This document shows positions 7,104 through 41,817 of a stretch of 48,480 bases of DNA, piece after piece. Below the pieces are notes generated by a model. The model had not been told where the DNA came from, did no database searches, and saw only the letters and a program-made list of their open reading frames with translations. Source of the stretch: Candidatus Hydrogenedentota bacterium (GTDB lineage: Bacteria > Hydrogenedentota > Hydrogenedentia > Hydrogenedentales > SLHB01); contig JACQVH010000232.1 of NCBI GenBank assembly GCA_016209895.1, forward strand, positions 1-48,480. Reading direction: 5' to 3'. The position numbers and the translations under genes are program-made. Numbering within the stretch: the stretch's first letter is position 1; the number at the start of each line of letters is the position of its first letter.

Positions 7104-10103
7104 TCAATCGGAGCCACGACCTGCAGAGTTTCGTACCGGAGTCTTAGTGGCTTCCTCTGGGGATTCATCTTCAAATTGCCCCGCGTCGAAATCTGCTCGG
7201 GTGGTTTGGTTCGGCGCGACGATGGCTTCTCGTTCGAGGACGGGTGGTCTCTCCCCCGGCTGTTGGGGTAAGTGGAGTTGAATCCGCACGGTGACTGTTC
7301 CCGGTACCACGCGCTCGATTCGGTAGTGACCGTTGGCGTCCGTTCGAATCGGTTGCGGCCCCCTGGGCGCGATGATGATCGCTCCTGATACCGGCTGTCC
7401 GTCATCGGTGACGACGCCTTCGATAATTCCGGGCTGGTCGAGGACTATCTCAACGCTTTGTATAGCGGTGCTACCCGATTGTACGGCGACACTTCCCTCA
7501 ATAAGGTCCGAGCGGTAGGCCCCGATTTCGGACACGTCCGCCGGGAAGTTTTCCACGCGGAAATAGCCGTCGGCGTCCGTGACGGCTGCGGCGCCGCTAT
7601 GGTCTCGCGGAATCGGTCCGGGGAAAATCTGTGCCGCCGCCAGTGGCTGACCATCGGCGTCAAGTACTCTACCCTCCACGACGCCGGCGCCGGGGAGCAA
7701 CTCGACGATAATACCTTCCAAAACGTCCACGTCCTCGCTCATGTTTAGCGAGACTTGGGCGGCGCTATAGCCTCCGGCACGGGCGGAAAGGATCAAGCTT
7801 TGGTCCTCCGTTGGAGGCGTAACTTCGCAAGAGAATCGGCCTTCGGCATCGGCGACGGGGCGATAGCGCGGTTCAAACCGAAAATGACCGGGCAGCATCA
7901 GATTGACGGCGATTTCAAAGTTGGGGATGGGGGCGCGGGTCTTGGCATCGAGCACCTGGCCCGCCACGCGCGACCATTCTCTCATGACGAGGTCCGCCGA
8001 GTCGCTGCCGGCGCGGACGTTTTCCCTGGCAGCCTGGCGATACTTGGGATGCCGCGCCATGATCGTATACGTATCGTCATCGAGACCGGTCACGGTGTAA
8101 CGACCGTCCGGACCCGAGACGGCAAAGTCGTTGTGCGCTCCGGTCGTCGTAGCGGTGTTCACTTGCGCGCCTTCTACCGGATTTCCGGCTTCGTCGGTGA
8201 TCCGGCCGCTGATGCTGAGCAAGTTTCGTTCGTCGTACACGAGGCGGAGTCCCCGGCGGGATTCACCGGGTTTCAACGCTACGGTGGCCACCTGCATGAA
8301 CCCGTGCAGGAAGTCGCCGCTCCCGGAGGCGGCTACCTCCATCTGATAGTCGCCCGGGGTGATAACCGGAATGACGAAATTGCCTTCGCCATCTGTCATG
8401 GTCTGGTACCCGCCGGCCAGCCCAGGAATGTTTTCTCCCGTTCGTGCCACGACGCGGGCTCTGCGAGGCCGACCCGAGCCGTCCACCACGTAGCCGGCGA
8501 TCACGCCGTCGAACCCCTGGTCGAGAACCAACTCGACGTTTCGGCCGCTTTCCACGCCCGCGATCACGGGTCCCACCCGCTTGCTCTTGGCCGTCGGGGT
8601 TTCGGCGGATAGATAAACCGCCTCGTTTTCCCGGGGCCCAACCGCGGCAAACGCTCCCTGCGCGTCGGAGCTGCATCGTCCTTGCGGGCCCGAAAAGACC
8701 TGCCACGTGACCACGGCATCCTTGACCGGTTGTCGTTCGGCATCCAGGACCTTCCCTGCGATGAGAGTGGCACGCCGTACTAAGAAGTCCACGCCTTCCA
8801 GTCGCGAGCCAAGCTGCACGTTGACGAGTTTTGGTTGGCTGCGCGGGTCCGATTCGAGCAGGGAAGGCGTCACGCGGTAGGAATCGGGGGCCAGACCGGT
8901 GATCGAGAACGACCCGTTCGAGTCCGTAGGAGCGGAGCGTTTCGATAACATCGGATGCTTCTGCGGAAACGCCGCTACAGTTACACCCGCGATCCCTTCC
9001 TCGGTGTCCGCGTCGGCGACGCGACCGGTGACGGTTCCGCCTTCGGATACCTCCAAAACCAGGTTTTCAATGTTTGTCTCTTCTTTCGTCTCGACCTTCT
9101 CCGAGCCGTTTTTCATGGTCCAGCGGGGGTCATTGCAGAAAAGCACGTACGCGCCCGGGGCCAATTGTGAAAAAATGAAAGCTCCCGCGTCGTCCGATAC
9201 GACCTTCCTCACATCGTGCCGATCCTTCTCCTTGTTGGCTGTTAGTTGCACTCCAGACACGGGCTTGCGTTGTTCGGATTCGACCACGACACCCGCAACC
9301 ACGGCCCCTTTATGCAGGACGATCTTGGCATCGCGCGTGCCTACGGGAATCGGTTCGGTCCAGGCTGGGGCGTAGCCATCGGCGTAGACGTACAACTCCC
9401 AGGTTTGAGACGCCAGAATATCGAAGGCAAAACCGCCAGCCACATCGGAAACCGCGACAAGTGCGGAGGCCATATATCCTTGAAGGTCTTGGCCGTCATG
9501 GTGCAACGGGATGAGACGTGCTCCCCCTATCGGTGCACCTTGGACGTCAGAGACCGTACCGGCCAATGGCAGGCCACGTTCCAACACCAGCCGGAACACT
9601 TTGACGGAATGTTCCGCGTCAAGGCGATCCCCCGTGACCGCCATTGCATCTTGACTGTGCGCCAAGACGCCATACCAACCCCAGGGCAGACTTTCGATAC
9701 GGAAAACGCCGTGTTCGTCGGTTTCCGTCGTCCATCGTTGGGAGGTCTCGTTTGCGGGGGAAGCGCCGGTGCCTCCGGCCGAATAGCTGGCCAAGGCTGC
9801 GCTACCCTTCTCGCTCCACACGGCGCGGATCATAGCCCCTTGCGCCACGGTTCCATCCGGGAGATAGACGCGGCCAACGATAGTCCCTTGGCCTCGCGGC
9901 AACGGCTGGTTGGGCCGTATCTCGTCGCGAATCGGCTCCAACACTTCGGGGACGGACTTCGAATCGGTTTCACGGCTCACTAAGGGTTCGCTTCTTTGCA
10001 GTGGTTGCCCCTTGGAACGTAGCAGCAGCGGAATCGCACTCCAGAGAATCAGGACGATTACGATTGTGATGGCTAGTAGACCCCACTTTTGCGACTTAGT
10101 CAT
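7104..10103 (-). CDS. Membrane-anchored protein of carboxypeptidase-regulatory-like repeats
   Basis: A 999-residue protein. I choose ATG at 10103 because it has a Shine-Dalgarno (AGGGGAAAA on the minus strand) and is followed directly by a membrane anchor (residues about 7-26, LLAITIVIVLILWSAIPLLL). A further upstream frame extension lacks such support. After the anchor come roughly nine to ten repeats of a beta-sandwich type, each with a glycine-rich start such as GTIVGRVYLPDG, VTGRVADADTEEG, ISGRITDEAGNP and VEGRVLDADGQPL, and an ending such as GxFxIxGLxPGxY. This is the CarboxypepD_reg / SpaA-like pattern of extracytoplasmic adhesion or scaffold proteins. No enzyme domain is visible. Confidence 0.8.
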   Translation of the reverse strand: MTKSQKWGLLAITIVIVLILWSAIPLLLRSKGQPLQRSEPLVSRETDSKSVPEVLEPIRDEIRPNQPLPRGQGTIVGRVYLPDGTVAQGAMIRAVWSEKGSAALASYSAGGTGASPANETSQRWTTETDEHGVFRIESLPWGWYGVLAHSQDAMAVTGDRLDAEHSVKVFRLVLERGLPLAGTVSDVQGAPIGGARLIPLHHDGQDLQGYMASALVAVSDVAGGFAFDILASQTWELYVYADGYAPAWTEPIPVGTRDAKIVLHKGAVVAGVVVESEQRKPVSGVQLTANKEKDRHDVRKVVSDDAGAFIFSQLAPGAYVLFCNDPRWTMKNGSEKVETKEETNIENLVLEVSEGGTVTGRVADADTEEGIAGVTVAAFPQKHPMLSKRSAPTDSNGSFSITGLAPDSYRVTPSLLESDPRSQPKLVNVQLGSRLEGVDFLVRRATLIAGKVLDAERQPVKDAVVTWQVFSGPQGRCSSDAQGAFAAVGPRENEAVYLSAETPTAKSKRVGPVIAGVESGRNVELVLDQGFDGVIAGYVVDGSGRPRRARVVARTGENIPGLAGGYQTMTDGEGNFVIPVITPGDYQMEVAASGSGDFLHGFMQVATVALKPGESRRGLRLVYDERNLLSISGRITDEAGNPVEGAQVNTATTTGAHNDFAVSGPDGRYTVTGLDDDTYTIMARHPKYRQAARENVRAGSDSADLVMREWSRVAGQVLDAKTRAPIPNFEIAVNLMLPGHFRFEPRYRPVADAEGRFSCEVTPPTEDQSLILSARAGGYSAAQVSLNMSEDVDVLEGIIVELLPGAGVVEGRVLDADGQPLAAAQIFPGPIPRDHSGAAAVTDADGYFRVENFPADVSEIGAYRSDLIEGSVAVQSGSTAIQSVEIVLDQPGIIEGVVTDDGQPVSGAIIIAPRGPQPIRTDANGHYRIERVVPGTVTVRIQLHLPQQPGERPPVLEREAIVAPNQTTRADFDAGQFEDESPEEATKTPVRNSAGRGSD

Positions 10104-29105: not shown

Positions 29106-32100
29106 GTGTTGCCCTACGAACCAACAGAACCCCTGCACATGCGTGAGGCGGCGAGTAAAGGACTATATAGTCCTTGGCATGAACACGACGCCTGCGGGGT
29201 GGGATTTGTCGTCAATCTGGAAGGCCCTCCCACCCATCGTATCATTGAACAAGGAATCCAAGTCCTTGAGAATCTCGAACATCGAGGGGCCTGCGGTTGC
29301 GACCCCGAAACCGGAGACGGGGCGGGAATTCTGATTCAAACGCCTCATCGTTTCTTTGCGGAAGAGGCTGAGCGGCTGAAGATTCCCTTACCGCCACCGG
29401 GCGAATATGCGGTGGGCATGGTCTTTCTTCCCACCGAAACTTCGGAACGGGAGGACTGCATCTGTATTCTGGAGAAGGCGGTCCGTGACGAAGGCCAAAC
29501 GCTCCTCGGATGGCGGGACGTCCCGCGAGATTCCTCGGCCATCGGTTTTGTGGCCCGGCGCAGTGAACCGGTCATCCGACAGGTTTTGATCAAACGCGCC
29601 ACGGGTCTGGATACGGACGCCTTCGAACGCAAGCTGTACGTAATTCGCCGGGTGGTTGAGAACGCGGTCCGCAAACTCACCACGCAGTCCAAGGCGCAGT
29701 TCTATATCCCCAGCCTCTCCGCGCGCACGTTGATTTATAAAGGTCTGATGCTGGCCAACCAGATGACCCGATACTATCCGGACCTCTCGCATCCGAGTCT
29801 CGAGAGCCGCTTGGCGCTCGTGCACCAGCGCTATAGCACGAATACGTTCCCGATCTGGCCGCTGGCGCATCCCTTCCGGTTCCTGGCGCACAACGGCGAG
29901 ATCAATACCCTCCGCGGCAATATCAATATGATGGCGTCCCGCGAAATGCATTTCAGCAGCCCTCTGTTTGGAAACGACGTGAAGAAGCTCCCGCCGATCC
30001 TGCAGGCCGGCGGCAGCGACTCGGCGATGTTGGACAACGCCGTCGAATTGCTGGTTCGCGGCGGTCGTTCCGTGGCGCACGCCATGATGATGCTGATCCC
30101 GGAACCGTGGAGCGGGCATGAAAGTATGTCCGACGACAAGAAGGCCTTCTACGAGTATCATGCCGGCATGATGGAACCCTGGGACGGCCCCGCCTCGGTA
30201 GCCTTTACAGACGGCGTGCGCATCGGGGCCGTGCTGGACCGCAACGGCTTGCGACCGTCGCGATACTGGGTGACGAAGGACAAATTCGTCGTAATGGCAT
30301 CGGAAGTCGGCGTGCTGGCCATCCCGCAAGATCGCATACTCAAGAAGGGTCGGCTCGAACCCGGACGCATGTTCCTAATTGATACTGAGGAACACCGCAT
30401 CGTAGACGATGCCGAACTCAAATCCACCATCTGCAATCGCCGGCCGTATCGGACCTGGCTGAATCTGCACCAAGTCCGACTACCGGCCGAATGCGCGGAC
30501 ACCGACGGCGCGGGCGACACTGCGTCTCTCTTGCGGCGGCAACAGGTATTCGGCTATTCGCAAGAAGACCTCGAAATTCTCATGATCCCCATGGCGCAAA
30601 AAGGCGAAGAGCCGGTCGGATCAATGGGGAACGATGCGCCGCTGGCGGTGCTATCCAATCGCCCGCACCTGCTTTTCAACTACTTCAAACAGTTGTTCGC
30701 GCAAGTGACGAATCCGCCGATTGACCCGGTCCGGGAGTCGCTGGTAATGTCGCTCGAGACGACGATTGGGCGCGAGCGGAATCTCCTCGATGAGACGCCG
30801 GAGCATTGCCAGCAACTGCACCTTCGCGCGCCGATCATTACGAACGAGCAGCTTCAGTATCTGAAGACGCTACATACGCCCGGACTCAAGGCCACGGTTA
30901 TTTCCACACTGTTCCCGGTCGCGGGCGGTCCGCCCGCATTGGAAAAGGCGCTGGACCGCATCTGTGCAGAAGCCAGCGAAGCCGTGGCCGCCGGCAGCAC
31001 GATATTGATCTTGTCGGACCGGGGCGTGGATGAGAGACATGCCCCCCTCCCGAGCCTTCTGGCGACGGGGGCCGTGCATCAGCACCTGGTCCGCGAACAT
31101 ACACGCACGGAGTGTGGACTCGTCGTCGAATCCGGTGAACCGCGCGAGGTCACGCATTTTTGCCTGCTGACCGGTTACGGGGCCGGAGCGGTGAATCCGT
31201 ATCTGGCGTTCGAGTCGCTCGAGGACTTGGTCCACCGAGAACTGCTGGTCGAAGACGCCCCGCACAAAGCCCAGAAGAATTTCATGAAGGCGGTCGAGAA
31301 GGGCTTGCTCAAAGTCATGTCGAAAATCGGTATTTCGACCCAGCACAGCTACCGGAGCGCTCAGATTTTCGAGGCGGTCGGCCTCAGCCGCAAGCTGGTC
31401 GAACGGTGCTTCACGGGCACGGCTTCTCGCGTGGAAGGCATCGGACTGGAAGAAGTCGCGCGCGAGACCTTGATGCGCCATGCGGTGGCCTATCCCCACG
31501 TACCGGCGCGGAACCCGGAACTCGATCCGGGCGGCCAGTACCGTTGGCGGAAGCGGGGCGAGTTTCACAGCTACAATCCCGACACCATCGCCAAGCTGCA
31601 ACACGCGACGCGCGCGAATAGCTGGGAACGCTATCAGGAATTCACGGCGCTGGTAAATGATCGCAATCGCTGCCTCGCCCAGTTGCGGGGCCTGCTGAAG
31701 TTTAAGAAAGGCACGCCGATCCCCATCGAGGAAGTCGAGCCGGCGAAAGAGATCGTGAAACGTTTCTGCACCGGCGCGATGTCGTTCGGAGCGCTCAGCA
31801 AGGAAATGCACGAGACGCTGGCCATCGCGATGAACCGCTTGGGCGGGCGCAGCAATACCGGCGAGGGTGGCGAAGATCCCGAACGATTCCGTCCCGATCC
31901 GAATGGCGATTCCCGACGCAGCGCAATCAAGCAAGTTGCTTCCGGACGATTCGGCGTAACCAATGAATACCTCGTAAACGCGGATGAACTGCAGATTAAG
32001 ATGGCCCAAGGCGCCAAGCCCGGCGAGGGCGGCCAGCTTCCCGGCCATAAAGTCGTAGGCAAGATCGCGCAAGTTCGATACTCGACGCCCGGCGTCGAGC

Positions 32101-33680
32101 TGATTTCGCCCGCGCCGCACCATGATATTTACTCGATTGAAGATCTCGCCCAACTGATCCACGATCTCAAGAATGCCAACGTATATGCCAACGTCTCCGT
32201 GAAATTGGTATCTGAGGTTGGCGTGGGCACCATTGCGGCGGGCGTATCCAAAGCCAAGTCCGACTTGGTGCTTATCAGCGGGCACGAAGGCGGCACGGGC
32301 GCCTCACCGCTCACCTCGATAAAGCATGCGGGGCTGCCTTGGGAGCTCGGTCTGGCCGAGACTCACCAGGTTCTCGTCGAGAATAACCTGCGAAGCCGAA
32401 TCAAAGTGCAGGTGGACGGTCAAATGAAGACCGGACGCGACGTGGCCATCGCCGCGTTGCTGGGCGCCGATGAGTATGGCTTCGCCACCGCGCCGTTGAT
32501 CGTCTCCGGTTGCATCATGATGCGGAAGTGCCATCTCAATACGTGTCCCGTCGGCATCACGACGCAAGACCCGGAACTGCGCAAGAAATTCCACGGCAAG
32601 CCCGAATACCTGATCAACTACTTCTTCTTTATCGCGGAAGAGTTGCGGGGAATTATGGCGGAACTGGGATTCCGCACGGTAAACGAGATGATTGGCCGAA
32701 GCGATATGCTCGAGTACGATCCATTGCCCGAGCACTGGAAAGCCCGTACCCTGGATCTCTCGCGCATTCTCTATGTGGCGGAACCATGGCCTGGAGAGAC
32801 CTTGTACTGCAGCCACAAGCAGGACCACGGGATCGAGCGGGCGCTCGACCACCAATTGCTGGAATTGGCCAAGCCCGCCCTCGAGCGCCGCGAGCCGGTC
32901 CGCTTCCAGATCCAGATACACAACACGAATCGGACCGTGGGCACGATCCTTTCCAGTGAACTGACGCGACGCCACGGCCTGGGCATGGCCACCGGCGACT
33001 ATCTCCCGGAGGATCTAATCTGGATCGATTGCAAAGGTTCCGCCGGGCAAAGTTTTGGCGCCTTCGCCATTCGCGGCATCACGTTCTGCGTGGAAGGCGA
33101 GTCCAACGACTACCTCGGCAAGGGACTTTCAGGCGCAAAGATCATTGTCTATCCGCCGCGCGAATGCACCTTCAGGCCGGAAGAGAACATCATTATCGGT
33201 AACGTGGCATTGTACGGGGCCACGAGCGGGGAATGTTACGTCCGCGGCGTGGCCGGCGAACGATTCTGCGTCCGAAATAGCGGCGCTTGGGCCGTCGTGG
33301 AAGGCGTGGGCGACCATGGTTGCGAGTACATGACCGGCGGGCGGGCGCTGATTCTTGGCCTGACGGGCCGTAACGTTGCCGCCGGAATTAGCGGCGGTAT
33401 TGCCTTTGTCTACGACGTAGACGGCCAATTCGCGACACGCTGCAACTTGGGTATGGTGGACTTGAAACCGCTTCATGAGAAGAGCATCTCGGAACTGCGA
33501 GGGCTTTTGGAACGGCACCTGCGCTACACCCAAAGCCCACTAGCGCAGGGTCTCTTGGACGATTTTGAGAATTCCTTAGAAAAATTCTTGCGTGTCATGC
33601 CACGAGATTACGCGCGCGTCCTGCGCGAACAGCAGCCACGGACGGAAGTGCGCGAGGTAACCCATGCCGCGGCCCAGTAA
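29106..33680 (+). CDS. gltB: Glutamate synthase, large subunit
   Basis: A 1524-residue enzyme making two glutamates from glutamine and 2-oxoglutarate. A short propeptide precedes the class II glutamine amidotransferase nucleophile C30 in [10 protein letters not shown]. The central and FMN domains follow. The 3Fe-4S site lies near 1136-1148 ([16 protein letters not shown]). The C-terminal beta-helix domain (GxGxG) has repeated glycines such as GLSGAKI and [12 protein letters not shown]. The start is uncertain: GTG 29106 is used, while TTG 29109 and ATG 29139 also keep the propeptide short. Its 3-prime end overlaps gltD by 17 bp. Full length for the family. Confidence 0.95.
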
Positions 33681-35157
33681 AGAAAAAGGGTTTATGGCGT
33701 ACCTCCGGGAGTTGCCCCCGGACCTGCCGGTCGAGGAGCGCGTTCGGCATTACGACGAGTTTACCGCCACCTGGTCTCCGGAGCAGACGCGCGATCAGAG
33801 CTATCGCTGTATGAACTGCGGCGTTCCCTTCTGCCAATACGGATGTCCGCTCGGCAACATTATCCCGGACTTTAACGACTTGGTGAAAGACGACCAGTGG
33901 CGCGACGCGCTCGACAGGCTGCATTCGACCAATAATTTCCCTGAATTCACCGGCCGGGTTTGCCCTGCGCCCTGTGAGGCCGCCTGTGTACTCGGAATCA
34001 CCGAACCGCCGGTCACCATCAAGCTGATCGAGCGAGAGATCGGCGACCGGGGCTGGCAAGAAGGCTGGATCAGACCCCAACCGCCGAAGAAACGCAGTGG
34101 GAAGCGGGTCGCTATCGTCGGGTCCGGGCCTGCCGGCCTGGCGGCCGCGCAGCAACTCAACCGGGCCGGGCATTACGTAACGGTGTTCGAACGTGCCGAC
34201 GAACCTGGCGGCCTCCTAACGTACGGCATTCCAGACTTCAAGCTGTCCAAGGTCGTCGTGTGCCGGAGGCTTGATCAGATGCGCGCCGAGGGGGTGGAGT
34301 TTCGCTGCAACGTTTGGGTCGGCAAAGAAATCCCCGCCACGCGCCTGGTCGAAGACTTCGACATCATCTTGTTGACCATCGGCGCCACGAAGTCCCGGGA
34401 CTTGGACATTCCGGGTCGTGACCTGGCTGGGATTCATTTGGCGATGGAGTTCCTCTGTCAACAGAATCGCCGAGTGGCGCGGCGACCCGTGCTCGGTCGA
34501 GAGATTACCGCGAGAGGCAAGAACGTAATCATTCTCGGCGGCGGAGATACCGGGTCGGACTGTCTGGGCACTTCTCACCGGCAGGGCGCAAAGAAGGTAT
34601 GGTCATTCGAATTATTGCCCAAACCGCCGCTGGACCGAATTGAATCGAATCCTTGGCCCCAGTGGCCGTTCGTCCTTTACACGTCGAGTAGCCACAAGGA
34701 AGGTGGCGAACGGGACTGGAGCGTCATGACCAAGCGCTTCAGCGGCGAGGACGGTCAGGTAAGACGTCTTCATGCGGTACGCTGGGAATGGGGTCCGCAG
34801 GATGAAAATGGGAGACGGCCGATGGTCGAGATTCCGCGCACGGATTTCGAAATCGAGTGTGAACTCGTGCTATTGGCGTTGGGTTTCGTACATCCAGAGC
34901 ATGATATTGCGACCCAGTTGGGATTGGAGTTGGACGCTCGAGGCAATATTCGGGCCGGAGCCGATTTTCGCACTAGCCACGATAAAGTATTCGCGGCGGG
35001 CGACGCTCGTCGCGGCCAATCTCTCGTGGTCTGGGCGATTCACGAAGGCCGCGAAGCGGCGCGTGAGATCGATCTTGCGCTCCGCGGATACTCCGACTTG
35101 CCCAGCGCCGCCTCGCACGGATACGATGCGGTCCCGCTGGAGACGGCAGCAGGGTAA
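33664..35157 (+). CDS. gltD: Glutamate synthase, small subunit
   Basis: A 497-residue NADPH-dependent flavoprotein passing electrons to GltB. It has two N-terminal iron-sulphur cysteine groups, [13 protein letters not shown] (C49, C52, C57, C61) and CPAPCEAAC (C100, C104, C108), the FAD motif GSGPAG (153-158) and the NADPH motif [12 protein letters not shown] 33664 lies within the end of gltB (17-bp overlap), indicating coupling. Full length for the family. Confidence 0.95.
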
Positions 35158-35323: not shown

Positions 35324-35353
35324 TTGACAGAACGCGCCGCAAGGTGATACAGT
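35324..35353 (+). promoter_or_regulatory. Candidate promoter of the small-peptide operon
   Basis: TTGACA (35324-35329) followed after 18 bp by TACAGT (35348-35353), an imperfect -10. It is the only consensus -35 in the gltD to peptide gap and lies about 85 bp before the first peptide. Confidence 0.45.
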
Positions 35354-35437
35354 TTGTATCCGAGGTTACGACCGGTTGTGAGAAAACCGTCGGTGGCGGC
35401 GCAGGAATCGACAACTAATGGGAGAGGAATACGAAAC

Positions 35438-35557
35438 ATGAAGCATGTGAAGCCGCTGACCCGGGTGCCCACTAGGGCGGATTTGCCATTTGATATTCAA
35501 TTCATCATTGACTTGCTGCAGGCATTTCTTCTGAAGAAAGAACGGACAGGTACGTAG
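35438..35557 (+). CDS. Small peptide 1, candidate precursor (39 residues)
   Basis: ATG at 35438 follows GGGAGAGG (35420-35427). The 39-residue product starts MKHVKPLTRVPT, has an amphipathic hydrophobic segment (about 20-32, IQFIIDLLQAFLL) and ends KKERTGT. It shares MKH[IV]K near the start, the QAF core and a Gly-Ser/Thr end with peptide 2, and a similar layout with peptide 3. No Cys is present. Its place at the head of an operon with acetyltransferases, a CPBP protease, an exporter and a SPASM-GNAT protein suggests a modified, exported peptide. I know no matching family. The smallness makes coding status uncertain, though the ribosome site and shared termini support it. A longer in-frame upstream start (35354) is less likely. 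Confidence 0.6.
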   Translation: MKHVKPLTRVPTRADLPFDIQFIIDLLQAFLLKKERTGT

Positions 35558-35670
35558 ACCGAAGTTTCGACGGCGACACCGATTGCCGGGACGTGCCGAA
35601 AGTTCGTATTCGGCGTTCGGATTCGTGCCCGGGCTCGGCCCATCGAGCGCAGACGAAAGAGAGGTCGGAG

Positions 35671-35811
35671 ATGAAGCACATAAAGCGAGTATCAGCCCAG
35701 AAGGCGTCCTCCCCGATAGGCAACGTCCTTCAGAACCTTTTTGAGGCAGTTCAAGCGTTTGTTTGTTGGTTTGTGTCGTTCTGGGGCAAACAGGCCTGCG
35801 GCTCAACTTAA
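35671..35811 (+). CDS. Small peptide 2, candidate precursor (46 residues)
   Basis: ATG at 35671 with GAGG/GGAG signals upstream. The 46-residue peptide MKHIKRVSAQKASSPIGNVL... has a hydrophobic aromatic segment (22-38, including AVQAFVCWFVSFW), two cysteines (C32, C43, ten residues between) and ends ACGST. It resembles peptide 1 in the MKH[IV]K start, the (L/V)QAF core and the Gly-Ser/Thr end. The Trp-rich amphipathic core recalls membrane-active peptides. Only this copy has Cys, so a disulphide or thioether is possible here but not in the others. Confidence 0.62.
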   Translation: MKHIKRVSAQKASSPIGNVLQNLFEAVQAFVCWFVSFWGKQACGST

Positions 35812-35833
35812 ACGGTGACGTATCAGGACAAAG

Positions 35834-35995
35834 ATGAACAAACACATTTCGTACGTGAGTAGGGCCATCCGCAATGAGGTCGAGACGGGCTCGCCGCAGG
35901 GAGCGGACGCGAAGAGCGACTTCCTGAACGCGTTGGCGCGCGCGTGGTCCGACTTCGTATTCGCCAAGAAGAACGAAGAACTCCCCGGTTCCTGA
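35834..35995 (+). CDS. Small peptide 3, candidate precursor (53 residues)
   Basis: ATG at 35834, 22 bp after peptide 2, with AGGA upstream (35824-35827). The 53-residue peptide begins MNKHISYVSRAIRNEVETGS, has a helix FLNALARAWSDFVFAKK (30-46) and ends NEELPGS, again with a Gly-Ser end. It shares the KH[IV] start and ends with a similar charged tail to peptide 1. It lacks Cys. Codon use is ordinary for the window. Most likely the third member of the same peptide set. Confidence 0.58.
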   Translation: MNKHISYVSRAIRNEVETGSPQGADAKSDFLNALARAWSDFVFAKKNEELPGS

Positions 35996-36118
35996 GCCGA
36001 AGGCCGAATTCCGCCACACTCGCTGGGGTCGGGGAGAGGGGTTGGGTCATGTCCCGGAGGGCCTTAGTGTACGGGGCGCTGTGCTTCGTCACGTCAGGCG
36101 CTAATTTGGATTCCAGCA

Positions 36119-36643
36119 ATGATTACGGGTGAGTACTCTATTATTCGAACCGCCGAATCGGACGACGCCTTTGAGATGGGCCGGCTATACGATCCAGCGT
36201 ATCCGCGTGCCTGCTTGTTGGACCGCAAGCGCGAACTTCTCGTGCCGACGATGGACGAGTTGCGCGAGTTGCTGGCGCGCAAAGACAAACTGGCCGGGCA
36301 GCTTCAGGTGATCGAAGACCGCGCCGGGAATGCCCGGGGTTTTTGCGCGTTACGAGCCGCGGAAACCGAACTGAACTATGCGGAAATGGTACTGATGCTG
36401 TTCGAGGAATCCAGCTATCAATCTCCGCTGGCCGACGAGGTGTTCGAGTACTTCTCTCGGGTCGCCTTCGTCCATCGCAAGCACAATAAGCTGATGGCCC
36501 AGTGTTTGGACGGCGAGTCGGCCTATCGAGCCTTTTTGCTCGGCAAGGAATTTCGCAGCGACGGCGTTCAGCGCGAGGCGTTCTTTTCGTCCGGACGCTG
36601 GCACAACCTCGAATCGCTCACGCGATTTCGTAATCAAGAATGA
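36119..36643 (+). CDS. GNAT-family N-acetyltransferase 1
   Basis: A 174-residue GNAT-like protein: IIRTAESDDAFEMGRLYDPAY at the start, ELNYAEMVLMLFEESSYQSPLADEVFEYF in the middle and the family ending, LLGKEFRSDGVQREAFFSSGRWHNLESL. That last segment matches the GF-x-x-EG-x-x-RE-x-x-x-x-GK-x-x-D end of RimJ/RimL-like enzymes, which use acetyl-CoA to acetylate amines or peptide N-termini. The acetyl-CoA loop is weakly conserved, so the activity is uncertain. ATG 36119 lies 123 bp after peptide 3 and 10 bp separate it from the next GNAT. Confidence 0.72.
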   Translation: MITGEYSIIRTAESDDAFEMGRLYDPAYPRACLLDRKRELLVPTMDELRELLARKDKLAGQLQVIEDRAGNARGFCALRAAETELNYAEMVLMLFEESSYQSPLADEVFEYFSRVAFVHRKHNKLMAQCLDGESAYRAFLLGKEFRSDGVQREAFFSSGRWHNLESLTRFRNQE

Positions 36644-36653
36644 AGTCGCCGCT

Positions 36654-37292
36654 ATGGCCTACAAGAGCAACGTCTATTTCCGCCGCGCCGAGCGCGAAGA
36701 CCTCGATACGGTCGTCGCGTGGCTTGACGATCCGGATTTTCTGCATTTTCTCTACGGCGACCCGACGCGTTCTCCCAAACAGATCCGCGAGAACATTGTG
36801 TCCATGCTGGGCCGTACTGTTGGTCAGACCCTTCCGGGCGCGATCTATTTGATCATCGAATCCCCGAACGACGGTCCTATCGGACTGCTCTCGCTGCAGA
36901 ATATCAGTTGGCGCAACCGCTCATGCAGCGTAGACCTGTACATGGGCAACAAGAAATACCGGGTCGGTCTCACCGCCGGACTGGCGTGGATGCGCGCCAT
37001 CGAATACTGCTTTGATGAGCTCAACCTGCACCGCGTGAGCGCGTATGTCTATTCTTTCAATACGGCTTCCTGGCGCATCTGCGAACGAAGCGGCGCAGTT
37101 CGCGAATTAACGCTGCGCGAGCACGTGGCGCGCGATGGCAAGTTGTACGACATGTATTGCTATGCATGGCTGCGCGAGGATTTCGACCGCCTGCGGGAAA
37201 GCATGAAAGACCAACTACCGGGAAAATCACTTGCCGACATGATCGCCGCGTGGGAAAAGTCTGCCGCTTCGCCCACGGAGGCGAATCCGTGA
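36654..37292 (+). CDS. GNAT-family N-acetyltransferase 2 (RimJ/RimL-like)
   Basis: A 212-residue GNAT: FRRAEREDLDTVVAWLDDPDF at the start, PIGLLSLQNISWRNRSCSVD, MGNKKYRVGLTAGLAWMRA (alpha-helix beside the acetyl-CoA site), YCFDELNLHRVSAYVYSFNT and SGAVRELTLREHVARDGKLY. These are the usual RimJ/RimL/spermidine-acetyltransferase elements. A C-terminal extension of about 25 residues is added. Its TGA overlaps the GTG of the CPBP gene (GTGA), so they are coupled. Substrate unknown; the operon peptides are the obvious candidates. Confidence 0.82.
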   Translation: MAYKSNVYFRRAEREDLDTVVAWLDDPDFLHFLYGDPTRSPKQIRENIVSMLGRTVGQTLPGAIYLIIESPNDGPIGLLSLQNISWRNRSCSVDLYMGNKKYRVGLTAGLAWMRAIEYCFDELNLHRVSAYVYSFNTASWRICERSGAVRELTLREHVARDGKLYDMYCYAWLREDFDRLRESMKDQLPGKSLADMIAAWEKSAASPTEANP

Positions 37293-37996
37293 CCGCGGTT
37301 TTTCTGTCCCTGCTCGGGGTCCACACTATCTACGCGCTGCTCACAAACCGCGCGGAGACGCCGCCCAAAAAGAGAAAAACCATCTCGATCGAGGTGGTGA
37401 TCCAGCTTCCGCTCTTCATTTTCGCTTGCCACTACGGTTGGGAAGCGGGCGTCATCTCACGCCAGTTGGTCTCTCCCGTGTACATCGGGCTGGGTCTACT
37501 GGCCGGGCACCTCGTGTTCGGCGTATCGTTGCTCATCACACACCGCTCCCTGCACGACACTTGGTCGCATTTTTTTGACTTCGGTCCGCTCTGGAAGTAC
37601 GCGTCCGATAGTCCGCTGGTCCTTTCCCGATTTTTCAGCGTGGCGGTGGTCGAGGAATTGATCTGGCGGGTGGCGGCGCAACCCTTGGCGACAAACCTAC
37701 TGGGGAATGCGTACCTGGGCGTCACCGTGACCGCGGTCCTGTTTTCCATTGTCCACCGGCATTTCTTTCGGAATACGCTGTCGGTCTCGCTCGAATTTCT
37801 GGCCTTTGCCCTCTTGCTGGGTGGGCTCTATCAGTGGACTGGCAGTCTGATCCTTGTTATTGTCATTCATGCCATCCGCGATATTGAGATCGCGTATCTC
37901 GAATATCTGATCAAGGCCGAAGAACTCGGCGACGAGGCGCTCGCCGCCCAGCATGTCGAGCAGACCCTGCTGCGCGGGCACCCGGAGAATCCATGA
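37289..37996 (+). CDS. CPBP-family intramembrane glutamic protease
   Basis: A 235-residue membrane protein. GTG 37289 overlaps the GNAT stop by four bases and starts at a membrane helix; an upstream in-frame ATG (37157) would add 44 non-homologous residues antisense-like to the GNAT and is rejected. CPBP motifs are present: EELIWR (E122, E123, R127), FSIVH (F152, H156) and HAIRD (H194, D198). Members include CAAX prenyl proteases and proteins next to bacteriocin genes. The probable role here is leader removal or peptide immunity. Its TGA overlaps the ABC ATPase start by ATGA. Confidence 0.85.
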   Translation: MTAVFLSLLGVHTIYALLTNRAETPPKKRKTISIEVVIQLPLFIFACHYGWEAGVISRQLVSPVYIGLGLLAGHLVFGVSLLITHRSLHDTWSHFFDFGPLWKYASDSPLVLSRFFSVAVVEELIWRVAAQPLATNLLGNAYLGVTVTAVLFSIVHRHFFRNTLSVSLEFLAFALLLGGLYQWTGSLILVIVIHAIRDIEIAYLEYLIKAEELGDEALAAQHVEQTLLRGHPENP

Positions 37997-39060
37997 GCAA
38001 CTCTCATCTCGTCGAACTGAACGACGTAGACAAGGTCTTTCACACGCGGCACTTCTTCTTCAAAGACGAAGACACCGCGCGGCGCCGGCTATATGCGAAA
38101 CGGGTGGTGCACGCGGTGGACCGCGTCACCTTCGGCATCCGGCACGGCGAGATTTTCGGACTGCTTGGTCCGAACGGCGCCGGAAAGACCACTACCGTCA
38201 AGATGATTTCCGGTCTGGTACGTCCATCCTCGGGCGACGTGTTCGTAGACGGGCTACACGTCGAACGCAAGCGCCTTAAGGTCTTGCGCAAGGTGGGTGT
38301 GGTACTGGAAGGGACGCGGACCTGTGTCTGGCCGTTAACGCCGCTCGAGAACCTTGCCTACTTCGGAAATCTCAAAGACGTGAAAGGATCGATTCTCAAA
38401 CAACGCGCGCGCGAGCTTCTAATCTTTATGGGGCTCAAGGACAAGATGAACGTCCAAGTCCGCAAACTCTCCCGCGGCGAGAAGCAGAAGCTGGCCATTT
38501 GCATCGCCCTCATCGCGGATCCCCCGGTGATCCTCCTGGACGAACCGACGACCGGACTCGATGTCCAGACCAGCCGCGTGATCAAGGACAAGATTGTTCA
38601 GATGACGCGCGAACAGGGCAAGTGCGTCCTGGTTACGACCCACGACATGCACGTCGCCCAAGAACTCTGTGATCGCATCGGGATCATCAATATGGGCCAA
38701 CTCGTGGCTTGTAAGCCGACCGAGGAATTATTGAGTCTGTTTTTCGACTTGACCTATGAGTTTCATCTGGACCGGCTACCCGACTCGGACGCACTCGCCG
38801 ACCTGCCGGGAGTCCTCGAAGTTGAACCGGCACGTCACGAAGATGGCCCGGTGCTGGTACTGCGCCTGCAGCCGGAACTCGCCCAACGATCCGAAGCTCT
38901 CTATACCGTCACCGGCCGGCTTCGTGAACAAGGCGTTCTGCTGCGCGCGATTATCCAGCGCCAGGCCAGCCTCGAAAGCGTTTTTCTGCATCTAACCACG
39001 AGCCCGGTGGATCTTCCCAAGGTGGCGTTGACCCAGCCTTCCGGAGCAGAAGTACGATGA
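37993..39060 (+). CDS. ABC exporter ATP-binding protein
   Basis: A 355-residue ATPase. Walker A GPNGAGKT (59-66), signature LSRGEK (159-164), Walker B PVILLDE (178-184) and the switch His in TTHD (H217) are intact. The stretch VFHTRHFFFKDEDTARRRLYAKRV near the N-terminus is an unusual insert before the Walker A. A C-terminal extension of about 100 residues follows. The start overlaps the CPBP stop (ATGA). It pairs with the permease 19 bp downstream, the layout of ABC-2 drug or peptide exporters. Confidence 0.87.
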   Translation: MSNSHLVELNDVDKVFHTRHFFFKDEDTARRRLYAKRVVHAVDRVTFGIRHGEIFGLLGPNGAGKTTTVKMISGLVRPSSGDVFVDGLHVERKRLKVLRKVGVVLEGTRTCVWPLTPLENLAYFGNLKDVKGSILKQRARELLIFMGLKDKMNVQVRKLSRGEKQKLAICIALIADPPVILLDEPTTGLDVQTSRVIKDKIVQMTREQGKCVLVTTHDMHVAQELCDRIGIINMGQLVACKPTEELLSLFFDLTYEFHLDRLPDSDALADLPGVLEVEPARHEDGPVLVLRLQPELAQRSEALYTVTGRLREQGVLLRAIIQRQASLESVFLHLTTSPVDLPKVALTQPSGAEVR

Positions 39061-39079
39061 CCGATCTACGGAGGCACAC

Positions 39080-39895
39080 ATGGGTTTCCTGCTAGTACTA
39101 AAAGCGGAACTGGTCCGCGCCTTCATCATCATGCGACGTTATTGGTTTGCCACCTTGACCAGCATCATCATTGGGTATGGCGTGCTGCTCATGCTGATCC
39201 TCACCTTCTTTTACAACCGCAGTGAAATCCAGGGTTGGGCCGACAAAACCATCGGGGAGAACGCAACCAATTGGGCGCTGGGCTTCATCGTGGGCATGTT
39301 TGCCTTCGGGATAGTCGGCCTGTTCAGCCAAGGTCTGCAAGGAATGGCCCGCAGCGGCGAGCTCGAGCAGGTCTATATGAGCCCCCACGGATTGATCACC
39401 AATTTCCTCGCGCGTTCTTTCGTAGCATCCGTTTCCAGCATCCTTTCCTCCGCCCTGATGCTCTGGTTGATCGCCCTCAGCGTGAAAGGCAAGCTCCATG
39501 CGGATTTTGGCCCTACGCTCGTCTTGCTCGCCTTGACGTACTTGAACCTGATCGGGTTCGGGTTCATGGTCGGCGGACTCGTCCTGGTCTTCAAGCAGAC
39601 CGGCCAAATCGCCATCTTGATCCGCACCGCGTTGATCTTCCTCGCCATCTTCGCCACCAAGGACGTCGAGAACTGGTGGCTGCCGGCCCGACTGCTGGCC
39701 CACATCTTGCCGATCACCGACGCGGCCATCTGCCTCAAGATGGTGCTCATCGAAGGCATCGGCACCGACGTGTTTGCGCAGGACTCGTTCTGGTTCCTGA
39801 TCATAAGTAGCGCGATTTGGACCTTCCTCGGCATCTCCTGCTTCAAGATCATGGAGAATTGGAGCCGCGACAAAGGCACGCTGGGAGCCTACTGA
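39080..39895 (+). CDS. ABC-2-type permease
   Basis: A 271-residue permease with about six membrane helices: WFATLTSIIIGYGVLLMLIL, LGFIVGMFAFGIVGLFSQG, SSILSSALMLWLIALSV and more. It matches the ABC-2 permease pattern, including a long C-terminal helix (LIISSAIWTFLGISCFKIM). A Shine-Dalgarno CGGAGG precedes ATG 39080. The stop overlaps the SPASM-GNAT start by one base (TGATG). It would form a dimeric exporter with the ATPase. The substrate is presumably the small peptides. Confidence 0.85.
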   Translation: MGFLLVLKAELVRAFIIMRRYWFATLTSIIIGYGVLLMLILTFFYNRSEIQGWADKTIGENATNWALGFIVGMFAFGIVGLFSQGLQGMARSGELEQVYMSPHGLITNFLARSFVASVSSILSSALMLWLIALSVKGKLHADFGPTLVLLALTYLNLIGFGFMVGGLVLVFKQTGQIAILIRTALIFLAIFATKDVENWWLPARLLAHILPITDAAICLKMVLIEGIGTDVFAQDSFWFLIISSAIWTFLGISCFKIMENWSRDKGTLGAY

Positions 39896-41817
39896 TGCCG
39901 CGCGAACTAATTCACCGCTTCGAGCTCGATGGGAAGCGGTTCGCCATGGACCCGGAGTCCTGCTTTTGCTTCGAATGCGACGCCGCCTCCTGGGACGTCC
40001 TCGAGTATTTTCCGCAGGTCTCAGTCAACCGCATTTTCCATCTCTTGCGCGAGAAACATAGCGAGAAGGAACTCAGCGAAGTAATCGGCGAATTGGAATG
40101 GCTTCGGGCCACCAAATCTATTCTTTCGGCCGGAAAACCGGAAGACCTGAAGAAGCAATTCGAGGTCGAACATGGCCTCAAACGCCTCACGGTTCAACTG
40201 CCCTCGGAAGAGCCGCAGCGCGTCGAGGCCAAACGCGGTTGGTTTGGCCGCGGGGCTACCGTGATTTCAAACCCGGCGCGGAGCCTGGGCCAAAGTGCGG
40301 TAGATATCCTGTTGGCGCGGGCGGAACAGCAGAAAGAACTTCAACTCGAGTTTCTGGAGGAAAGCTACGTCCGCCGCCCGGACTTGATCGCTGAGTTGTG
40401 CGATACGGCGTTGCGGGCGGCGCGGCTGGCGGACAAGAGCCTCACTGTCGCCGTGAACGTAAGCGACCTGAAGCTCAAGAATCTTCCCCCTTCGCTGCAA
40501 GGTCATCACCTTAGCGCCACGTTGGAAGTCCGCGATCCGCAGCAGGTATCCGACCATCTCCGTGCGCTCGGGCGCGGAGCGCCGGACACTCTCGCGCGAT
40601 TGGTCAAGGTACTTCAACCGGACGCCGACGGCGTGACCGGGCGCATCATCGTTCAACCGCGTCATGCGGACTTTGGCAATGCTGTGGAAGACTTGGATAA
40701 GGCGGGCTTCACAACCATTGAACTCGACTTGGACGGCGCGTACGTCGCCAATCCCAGCCTCAAACCGTCGGACATGTTGGAAGGACTCAGCCAGTCCGCC
40801 GTGTACTACGCGCAGTGTCTTCTCAAGCATCACTATTTTCGCCTGGACCCGATCGCCTCGCTTTTCTGGCGCATCTACGACGGGGCGCCACTGCGCCGCG
40901 CTGACCCCGCCGCGACCAACGAACTGGCCGTGGACGAAAAGGGCGACGTGTACCCCTCACCCCGCTTCTTTGGGCTCGAGGAATTCCGCTGCGGGTCTAT
41001 CGCCGAGGGCCGCATAGACCGCGAGAAGCTCGCGCCGTTCGACGATCTCGGCTCGCCCACCACTGCCGTCTGCCGCACGTGTTGGGCGCGAAATCTATGC
41101 GGCGGCGGGGCGTCCATAGTGCACTTTCGACTCGGCGGGTCCATTCGCGCACCGCACGGCCCTTGGTGTGATGCGCAGCGTGCTTGGATGGCCTCAGCCA
41201 TCGCCGCTTTCCACGTGCTATCATCCGAAGGCGTCAACTTCACCCGCGTCTATCACAACCTGACCCGAAATGCCAAGCCGTCGTTTTTCACGATGGTGCG
41301 CGCCGCGTTTCGCATGACCGTCGGGATGCGGCCCATCGAAGAATCGGACGCGCCCATGCTCGTGCGCTGGGAAAACTGGAACGACGCGGCTTACTTCGTG
41401 TTCAACGAAACCGGCATCCTGATGGCCACCAAATACGACCGCGAGATGGATTCGCTCCACCCGCAAGGAATCGAACAGGAACTTATTTTACAGCACCGCG
41501 ACGGCCAAGCCTTCGGACTTTTGAAGATTCGACCCGACCGCGTCCCGGGCATTGCCCACGCTTGGGTTTACATTCGAGACGAGAAGGACTACCGGTCCGA
41601 TTCGGTACGGAAGGGATTCCGGACCCTGCTGAAGGAAGCCGGTGGCCAGCAGTCCATCCGGCGCTTAACCGTACCCGCTACCGAAAAGGAAACGGCGCTG
41701 CAAGACTTCCTCCTCTCCTTGGGCTTCGAACGCGCCGGCGTACACCGGGAAGCCCTGTTCCTCCACGGGAAATACCACAACGTTCCCCTCTTTATCTTGG
41801 AACTGACGCGTCTTTAG
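39895..41817 (+). CDS. Inactivated radical-SAM/SPASM maturase-like protein fused to a GNAT domain
   Basis: A 640-residue protein starting at ATG 39895 (TGATG overlap with the permease). Residues 1-85 resemble the PqqD-like head of SCIFF-type peptide maturases (RFELDGKRFAMDPESCF). Residues about 97-340 follow the radical-SAM barrel, but the CxxxCxxC cluster motif is absent, and the usual GGEP, TNG and SLDG stretches read LEES, VNV and LEV. The SPASM region (about 345-430) keeps YPSPRFFG and CRTCWARNLCGGG. The Cys set is C393, C396, C402 and C425; S355 and A406 replace expected Cys. Residues 478-640 are a GNAT domain (MRPIEESDAPMLVRW ... GFERAGVHREALFLHGKYH). I infer a peptide-binding scaffold with acetyltransferase activity. 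Confidence 0.75.
   Translation: MPRELIHRFELDGKRFAMDPESCFCFECDAASWDVLEYFPQVSVNRIFHLLREKHSEKELSEVIGELEWLRATKSILSAGKPEDLKKQFEVEHGLKRLTVQLPSEEPQRVEAKRGWFGRGATVISNPARSLGQSAVDILLARAEQQKELQLEFLEESYVRRPDLIAELCDTALRAARLADKSLTVAVNVSDLKLKNLPPSLQGHHLSATLEVRDPQQVSDHLRALGRGAPDTLARLVKVLQPDADGVTGRIIVQPRHADFGNAVEDLDKAGFTTIELDLDGAYVANPSLKPSDMLEGLSQSAVYYAQCLLKHHYFRLDPIASLFWRIYDGAPLRRADPAATNELAVDEKGDVYPSPRFFGLEEFRCGSIAEGRIDREKLAPFDDLGSPTTAVCRTCWARNLCGGGASIVHFRLGGSIRAPHGPWCDAQRAWMASAIAAFHVLSSEGVNFTRVYHNLTRNAKPSFFTMVRAAFRMTVGMRPIEESDAPMLVRWENWNDAAYFVFNETGILMATKYDREMDSLHPQGIEQELILQHRDGQAFGLLKIRPDRVPGIAHAWVYIRDEKDYRSDSVRKGFRTLLKEAGGQQSIRRLTVPATEKETALQDFLLSLGFERAGVHREALFLHGKYHNVPLFILELTRL

Follow-up and report, generated by a model that had tools for sequence, protein, structure and literature searches.

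Among the known systems closest to the peptide operon treated here, found in Candidatus Hydrogenedentota bacterium, are the SCIFF or ranthipeptide systems (CteA-CteB and ScfA-ScfB; families PF13165, TIGR03973 and TIGR03974), in which a peptide of about 45 residues, six of them Cys, is encoded near its maturase and which are widespread in a single clade, the Clostridia, according to passages of PMC8326336. In the quinohemoprotein amine dehydrogenase (QHNDH) system, as related in parts of PMC7876137, QhpD grips the leader of QhpC, QhpG is inactive without QhpD, QhpE cuts the leader and QhpF exports; the leader presents the substrate to a second enzyme, after which the protease and the ABC efflux transporter follow. 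Two further points of comparison are the selidamides and nostolysamides, where GNAT-fold enzymes act on Lys or Orn of ribosomal peptides (passages of PMC13060382), and the PptAB-Eep pair, an ABC exporter and an intramembrane protease that deal with short hydrophobic peptides (passages of PMC7564271). The window studied here is a stretch of 48,480 nucleotides, contig C195 (JACQVH010000232.1) of a 5.34-Mb genome (GCA_016209895.1), and its positions 35438-41817 hold nine consecutive plus-strand open reading frames (ORFs; Table 1): three small peptides, two GNAT-fold proteins (GNAT1 and GNAT2), a CPBP protease, an ABC ATPase, a permease and a 640-residue fusion protein.

We read these genes as a conserved short-peptide operon in which a maturase of the SCIFF/QhpD type, devoid of the cluster residues, would act as a leader-holding scaffold that serves the GNAT-fold partners, the CPBP protease and the exporter, and we put the probability of this reading at roughly 0.58. 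At the level of sequence, its basis is the peptides, their leader, the gene order, the missing CxxxCxxC motif, the lost GNAT loop, the protease motifs and the ATPase family. An earlier note on the same DNA had given the gene positions and their shared strand, both of which were borne out when the ORFs were re-read. It had also counted four overlapping junctions after GNAT2, of which three stand (GNAT2/CPBP and CPBP/ATPase by 4 bases each and permease/fusion by 1 base, with GTGA, ATGA and TGATG); the ATPase and permease genes are separated by a 19-base gap.

The fusion consists of a PqqD-like domain (residues ~1-90), a radical-SAM-type barrel (~120-340), a SPASM domain (~340-445) and a GNAT domain (~473-640). 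It aligns with CteB continuously from residue 3, the two being homologous end to end up to residue 433, and its structure match also begins at residue 3. Support for the PqqD-like domain, a recognition element (RRE) of ribosomally synthesized and post-translationally modified peptides (RiPPs), comes from its homology to the domain with which CteB binds its leader; a Pfam search to E 1 gave no PqqD match in the fusion. Against TIGR03974 the protein scores 71 bits, where the cut-off is 425, and against the SPASM model TIGR04085 it scores 35.3 bits, above the cut-off of 27. CxxxCxxC is found in none of 44 fusion orthologues, each of the three cluster positions is Cys in 0/44, and no Cys of the fusion stands opposite the CNLRCKYC of CteB. 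In the SPASM domain C393, C396, C402 and C425 are kept in 44/44, and the other three positions are Cys in 0, 2 and 4 of the 44; a complete SPASM domain has seven such Cys, assigned to the two auxiliary clusters AuxI and AuxII. With the cluster Cys gone and both a CteB-type leader-binding domain and the SPASM match retained, the view that radical-SAM chemistry was lost and the binding domains were kept is supported. Judged by sequence, the fusion is a member of the SCIFF/QhpD maturase lineage, whose leader is also seen on the putative substrates of the fusion.

The leader-binding domain of the fusion contains two Cys, C25 and C28 (39967-39978, CFCFECD), that are invariant in 44/44 orthologues and that CteB does not share; they could possibly form a metal site or serve as an acyl carrier. 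The same phylum also has fusion-related SPASM maturases with CNLACRYC (L085, L113, L114 and L115), and the stretches fetched around these sibling catalytic maturases (genomes G004, G020, G031 and G043; L113, L114, L085 and L115) are free of MKH peptides.

Precursor-like peptides were sought by a leader pattern in 40 loci. In the 113 kb upstream of GNAT1 the coding strand carries 106 such ORFs and the opposite strand 10; other parts of these loci, amounting to 788 kb with both strands counted, carry 60, so that the number is above chance. An MKH[ILV] start was seen in 1 of 2544 ORFs of 100 residues or more. After seven of the 106 had been discarded by eye, 99 peptides of 31-69 residues were retained in 35 of the 40 loci; none was retained in L038, L065, L066, L071 and L078. 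The consensus leader is M-K-H/R-[ILV]-[RK]-x-[IVL]-[ST], with preferences for P at residue 11 (48/99) and A at residue 14 (67/99). Since the pattern preselects part of this motif, a core-only profile of class 3, to which the third peptide of the window belongs, was run against circularity: it returned 55 ORFs, 51 with the leader and four with close variants, and in loci outside its training set the leader was present in 34 of 38.

A pooled ratio of nonsynonymous to synonymous differences (pN/pS) of 0.23 over 22 hand-picked peptide pairs shows that, for the chosen pairs, the peptides are under purifying selection as coding sequence; the random dN/dS by which the earlier note would have recognised peptides not conserved as coding was not seen. 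Peptide 1 is 54% identical to its relative in L033, with a dN/dS of 0.24, and peptide 3 matched 167 proteins in the protein database at E up to 10. When class 3 is split off by a rough motif rule, the class-3-like peptides prove amphipathic (median maximal moment 0.53, with 0/32 transmembrane-like) and the rest hydrophobic, 43/67 having a 19-residue window of mean hydropathy 1.6 or more. Cys is absent from 77 of the 99 peptides and never exceeds three. A K[ENDKTSP] step lies within the last 25 residues of 90 of them, where 1000 shuffles gave 40 on average and never more than 53, and the conserved C-terminal feature is this Lys instead of the G[ST] ending first proposed. Nothing usable was matched when the peptides were compared with solved structures.

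A similar leader recurs in the known members of the maturase lineage. Among 120 SCIFF peptides retrieved, KH stands ahead of the core in 105, mostly as MKH[IV][KR][TS][LI]; independently of that set, the SCIFF gene that precedes a maturase gene by 81 bases in L119 starts MKKHIKTL, and in L120 (3910-4236) the QhpC gene beside QhpD starts MKHLTPAN. The MKHL start of QhpC suggests a leader tag that would be common across the lineage. At the present loci a leader of the form MKH[IV][KR]x[LI] was likewise found near the maturase gene, and its similarity to the SCIFF leader matrix is partial, a result that supports common descent of the leaders and does not prove it. L119 (NZ_CP154629.1) is a 2.63-Mb "plasmid pTPELB2" that carries four annotated features only and may be a mislabelled chromosome.

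The likeness to SCIFF lies in a CteB-homologous maturase, a leader in the same register, the closeness of peptide and maturase genes and the spread within one clade. Unlike SCIFF, the present system has a GNAT domain fused to its maturase and GNAT, CPBP and ABC genes in its operon, and direct membership was ruled out by the absence of a six-Cys core, the absence of the radical-SAM cluster Cys and the loss, in most orthologues, of three SPASM Cys; TIGR03973 scored above its cut-off in 0/68 genomes, and PF13165 was not matched by window peptides 1 and 2. With QHNDH the system shares the MKHL type of substrate start and the homology of QhpD to the fusion, whereas QhpD is catalytic, the QHNDH protease is subtilisin-like and the substrate is an enzyme subunit rather than a set of short peptides. 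Of the systems that have been tested, QHNDH comes closest in its logic; in the present one the holder has lost its own reaction and carries a GNAT domain. The selidamides and nostolysamides described so far are lanthipeptides that have different leaders and lack a SPASM scaffold; in the present system the GNAT loops are lost. Eep is a metalloprotease, and we know of no leader-binding scaffold or GNAT unit in the PptAB-Eep system. Among the open-licence papers listed in literature searches, none describes a system such as this one; PMC13219616, the one paper found to name Hydrogenedentota together with RiPPs, does so in a single passage, a taxonomic count.

The machinery is found almost throughout the phylum. 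A profile search detected the fusion gene, whole or partial, in 62 of 68 genomes, or 36 of 38 when good-quality genomes alone are counted; it was missing from five of the six members of family f4, among them G027, and from one genome that is 60% complete. A single-sequence search placed the fusion in 55 of 60 related genomes, G027 being included only through a weak GNAT-type match. Of 53 distinct stretches, 35 keep the order GNAT1-GNAT2-CPBP-ATPase-permease-fusion on one strand, although in a few of these the fusion extends past the contig end (54 were compared, L043 and L071 being the same locus and counted once; L035/L048, L045/L078 and L081/L084 each look like one operon split over two contigs). 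Contig ends interrupt 14 of the remaining 18. Despite contig room, L037 has the permease and fusion only, with no ATPase or protease found, L038 is without GNAT1, and L055 is without the GNATs and the CPBP; L085 holds an off-family sibling. Protease and exporter genes stand beside the fusion in every roomy stretch except L037 and L055.

Peptides and machinery go together. The fusion and a class-3 peptide occur jointly in 55 of the 68 genomes, the fusion alone in seven, the peptide alone in one (G027, a 15-residue match) and neither in five (Fisher 0.0004, a value that ignores relatedness, with most absences in one family), and this is the co-occurrence that the earlier note had named as support. 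In the fusion-only genomes G001, G011, G035 and G066 the contigs stop short of the peptide site, and in G002 the upstream genes are missing. Operons lacking the peptides, or fusion homologues placed in unrelated operons alone, would have refuted the idea and were generally not encountered; in G048, G054 and G056 the 4-7 kb upstream of the operons (L071, L078 and L065) hold no such peptides, which lie on a separate contig as two tandem class-3 copies beside a glgP-like gene. In the subgroup of L098, L099, L100 and L103 the peptides stand outside the operon, next to a gene recognised by eye as glycogen phosphorylase and with class 3 twice in tandem. The neighbours of relocated peptides (glgP-like and pilin-like, named by eye) gave no functional clue.

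Nearly every named record with a relative of the fusion comes from Hydrogenedentota. The apparent outsiders are one record labelled Nitrospiraceae and one Bathyarchaeia protein among the best 120 of 292 matches; for the class-3 peptide the best 120 of 167 matches were listed, and in a further search the best 120 of 6206. A scan of genome contigs with patterns from the window's own fusion gave 17 loci and missed most phylum members too, and a plasmid search found 12 records, of which the 10 listed were of QhpD type or clostridial, with query coverage of at most 72%, so a restriction of the fusion to the phylum is tentative. The Nitrospiraceae label, that of L034 (JAACEL010000057.1), is likely wrong; the record would correspond to contig C638 of G010, a genome placed in the family of the window genome.

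All the GNAT-fold units were found to have that fold. Taken alone, GNAT1 of the window matches weakly (PF13302, E 0.0093, under the cut-off); of the 25 GNAT1 proteins in the alignment, 24 hit PF13420 (E up to 0.01), its model is a GNAT fold (predicted local distance difference test 92.1), and by its relatives and this model GNAT1 is a GNAT. GNAT2 is kin of SpeG and RimL and matches SpeG-type structures (E 5.8e-16), with invariant residues that include C91, R127, E144 and R160 (39/39). The acetyl-CoA loop [QR]xxGx[GA] is present in 0/39 GNAT1, 0/39 GNAT2 and 0/44 fusion sequences (row L076 is cut short there). Tyr is absent four residues before the conserved Gly, at position 140 of GNAT1, 143 of GNAT2 and 606 of the fusion, where the GNAT1 and fusion positions were read by spacing from SpeG; the SpeG Tyr at this place is the catalytic one. 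The proposed acetylation of the peptides is not supported by these loop and Tyr counts, which make it the least secure point of the earlier note. The three units are better explained by another donor or by a role in holding the peptides, and it is somewhat probable from their sequences that they do not act as ordinary acetyltransferases.

The protease motifs are intact: EExxxR, FxxxH and the His of the third motif are each preserved in 40/40 CPBP sequences, in agreement with the claim that all three motifs are present. The window permease matched zero Pfam families, and among 16 aligned permease orthologues ABC2_membrane_3 was found in eight and ABC2_membrane in one. In L038 the CPBP and ABC ATPase make up a single 650-residue open frame (7208-9157), which, if the assembly is right, is a natural fusion and hints that the two work jointly.

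Under the scaffold reading, MKH[ILV][RK]x[IVL][ST] would dock as a strand on the PqqD-like domain of the fusion, like the CteA leader on CteB, and such docking is highly probable. The fused and free GNAT-fold units would bind the core, and more probably to hold it, or to act on it with an unusual donor, than to work as conventional acetyl-CoA acetyltransferases; the CPBP would cut the leader or release the core at the membrane; and the ABC-2 pair would export what results, an amphipathic class-3 peptide together with variable hydrophobic ones. Cleavage and export by the predicted CPBP and ABC-2 pair seem likely, if less so than the docking. The earlier picture of a non-catalytic maturase as the platform for acetylated, exported peptides is upheld in the lost radical residues and the accompanying protease and exporter genes, and lacks support in the acetylation. 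We would give even odds that, throughout the phylum, every ancestral modification enzyme of this pathway, the maturase and the three GNAT-fold units alike, is now a binding module escorting helical peptides, one amphipathic and others hydrophobic, to a protease and an exporter that still work, or acts on the conserved Lys with an unusual donor.

Several observations weigh against the scaffold reading. The SCIFF leader matrix places only 44/97 peptides above the 99.9th background percentile, and without K2 and H3 66/97 exceed the 95th and 36/97 the 99th; the SCIFF family models matched none of the peptides tried. The operon is present in G058 and G065 with no peptide found in 3.9 kb and 1.6 kb upstream, respectively. 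GNAT2 keeps the loop Arg in 38/39 and has a mean column identity of 66% (15 rows), which seems higher than a passive partner would require; the C-terminal Lys box would suit an acyl acceptor. In a passage of PMC13060382, modelling suggests that the nostolysamide peptide is bound by the GNAT domain that has no clear acetyl-CoA consensus.

The alternative closest to these last points is that the GNAT units are divergent working acyltransferases for the C-terminal Lys, similar to those of selidamides and nostolysamides, with the fusion as a leader-bound platform and with clipping and export to follow. The excess of the Lys box over its shuffled counts is in keeping with it, as are the strong conservation of GNAT2 and the supply of three GNAT-fold units per operon, or four in the six loci with a second GNAT2-like gene in tandem (L049, L050, L051, L052, L080 and L083); RiPP GNATs, again in passages of PMC13060382, acylate Orn or Lys side chains, one having been modelled with a divergent-loop domain. 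Yet the loop was seen in none of the units, the catalytic position holds a residue other than Tyr, and the conserved Lys might do no more than cap a membrane helix; this alternative is rather unlikely. A role in signalling, in which secreted peptides are handled by an intramembrane protease and ABC export as with PptAB and Eep and the scaffold merely picks the cargo, is likewise rather unlikely and is compatible with the scaffold reading. The protease and ABC pair do sit alongside hydrophobic peptides, PptAB and Eep handle streptococcal pheromones likewise (passages of PMC7564271), and SCIFF is tabulated with quorum sensing (a portion of PMC8326336); however, Eep is a zinc protease rather than a CPBP, several divergent peptides per genome are unlike one signal, and the operon itself shows no receptor or regulator, no systematic neighbour search having been made.

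That the amphipathic class-3-like and hydrophobic peptides jointly attack rival membranes, as bacteriocins exported by the ABC pair, would suit their lying next to each other and is improbable, since near-universality in the phylum and the low class-3 dN/dS are unlike patchy bacteriocins, no immunity gene was recognised among the nine ORFs, and PADLOC gave no match for the six of the nine proteins scanned. The same scan set aside a known defence system as a candidate. Regulatory leader ORFs or chance ORFs in an operon that handles something else would explain short frames that precede the first large gene at spacings of tens to hundreds of bases, but the pN/pS, the 167 database matches, the peptides off the machinery contig in G048, G054 and G056 and leaders common to true SCIFF and QhpC substrates leave this with next to no credit.

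The operon is flanked by gltBD (29106-35157, named by eye) on one side and a convergent MFS-type gene on the other. In 15 further loci (L033, L049, L052-L054, L060-L064, L067, L080, L083, L084 and L106), as in the window, genes that read as gltB and gltD precede those for the peptides. As a functional partner gltBD was set aside, being absent from many other fetched stretches, and its presence beside only some loci is taken to mark an ancestral operon site. The promoter proposed ahead of the peptides is there as a sequence, TTGACA-18-TACAGT; one such site in the region is chance level, shuffled versions averaging 2.7, and it was dropped as evidence.

Table 1. Features of the peptide operon, with positions in the window
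Feature	Position	Strand	Evidence
Promoter-like site TTGACA-N18-TACAGT, before peptide 1	35324..35353	+	one site; shuffles mean 2.7
Precursor-like peptide 1, 39 residues, MKHVKPLTRVPTRA leader, hydrophobic core, KKE	35438..35557	+	relative in L033
Precursor-like peptide 2, 46 residues, MKHIKRVS leader	35671..35811	+	partial class-3 profile match, E 0.0025
Precursor-like peptide 3, 53 residues, class 3, amphipathic by calculation	35834..35995	+	profile match in 56/68 genomes
GNAT-fold protein 1 (GNAT1), 174 residues, without acetyl-CoA loop	36119..36643	+	relatives and model
GNAT-fold protein 2 (GNAT2), 212 residues, RimL/SpeG/PseH-like, without loop glycine or catalytic Tyr	36654..37292	+	PF13302, E 1e-16
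CPBP (Rce1-like) intramembrane protease, 235 residues, GTG start	37289..37996	+	PF02517, E 1e-12
ABC transporter ATPase, DrrA-like	37993..39060	+	PF00005, E 1.7e-28; TIGR01188, E 7.4e-69, under cut-off
ABC-2 type permease	39080..39895	+	ABC2_membrane_3 in 8/16 aligned orthologues
640-residue fusion: PqqD-like, radical-SAM-type barrel, SPASM, GNAT	39895..41817	+	family models, alignments, structure match

Being near-universal in the phylum, the system is likelier to have a housekeeping, signalling or envelope role than that of a niche antibiotic, and the operon makes the role of peptides conserved across an almost whole, mostly uncultured phylum testable. If the scaffold reading is true, a leader of the SCIFF/QhpD lineage and the domain that binds it would have outlasted the radical chemistry they served and been redeployed, and M(K)KH[IL] would be an old address tag common to SCIFF, QhpC and the Hydrogenedentota peptides. 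The fusion may help to locate other relatives of RiPP maturases that do without radical chemistry, and it raises the question of whether loop-less GNAT folds use another donor or merely hold peptides. Leader-holding in the absence of radical chemistry would, if true, be a new style of peptide maturation.

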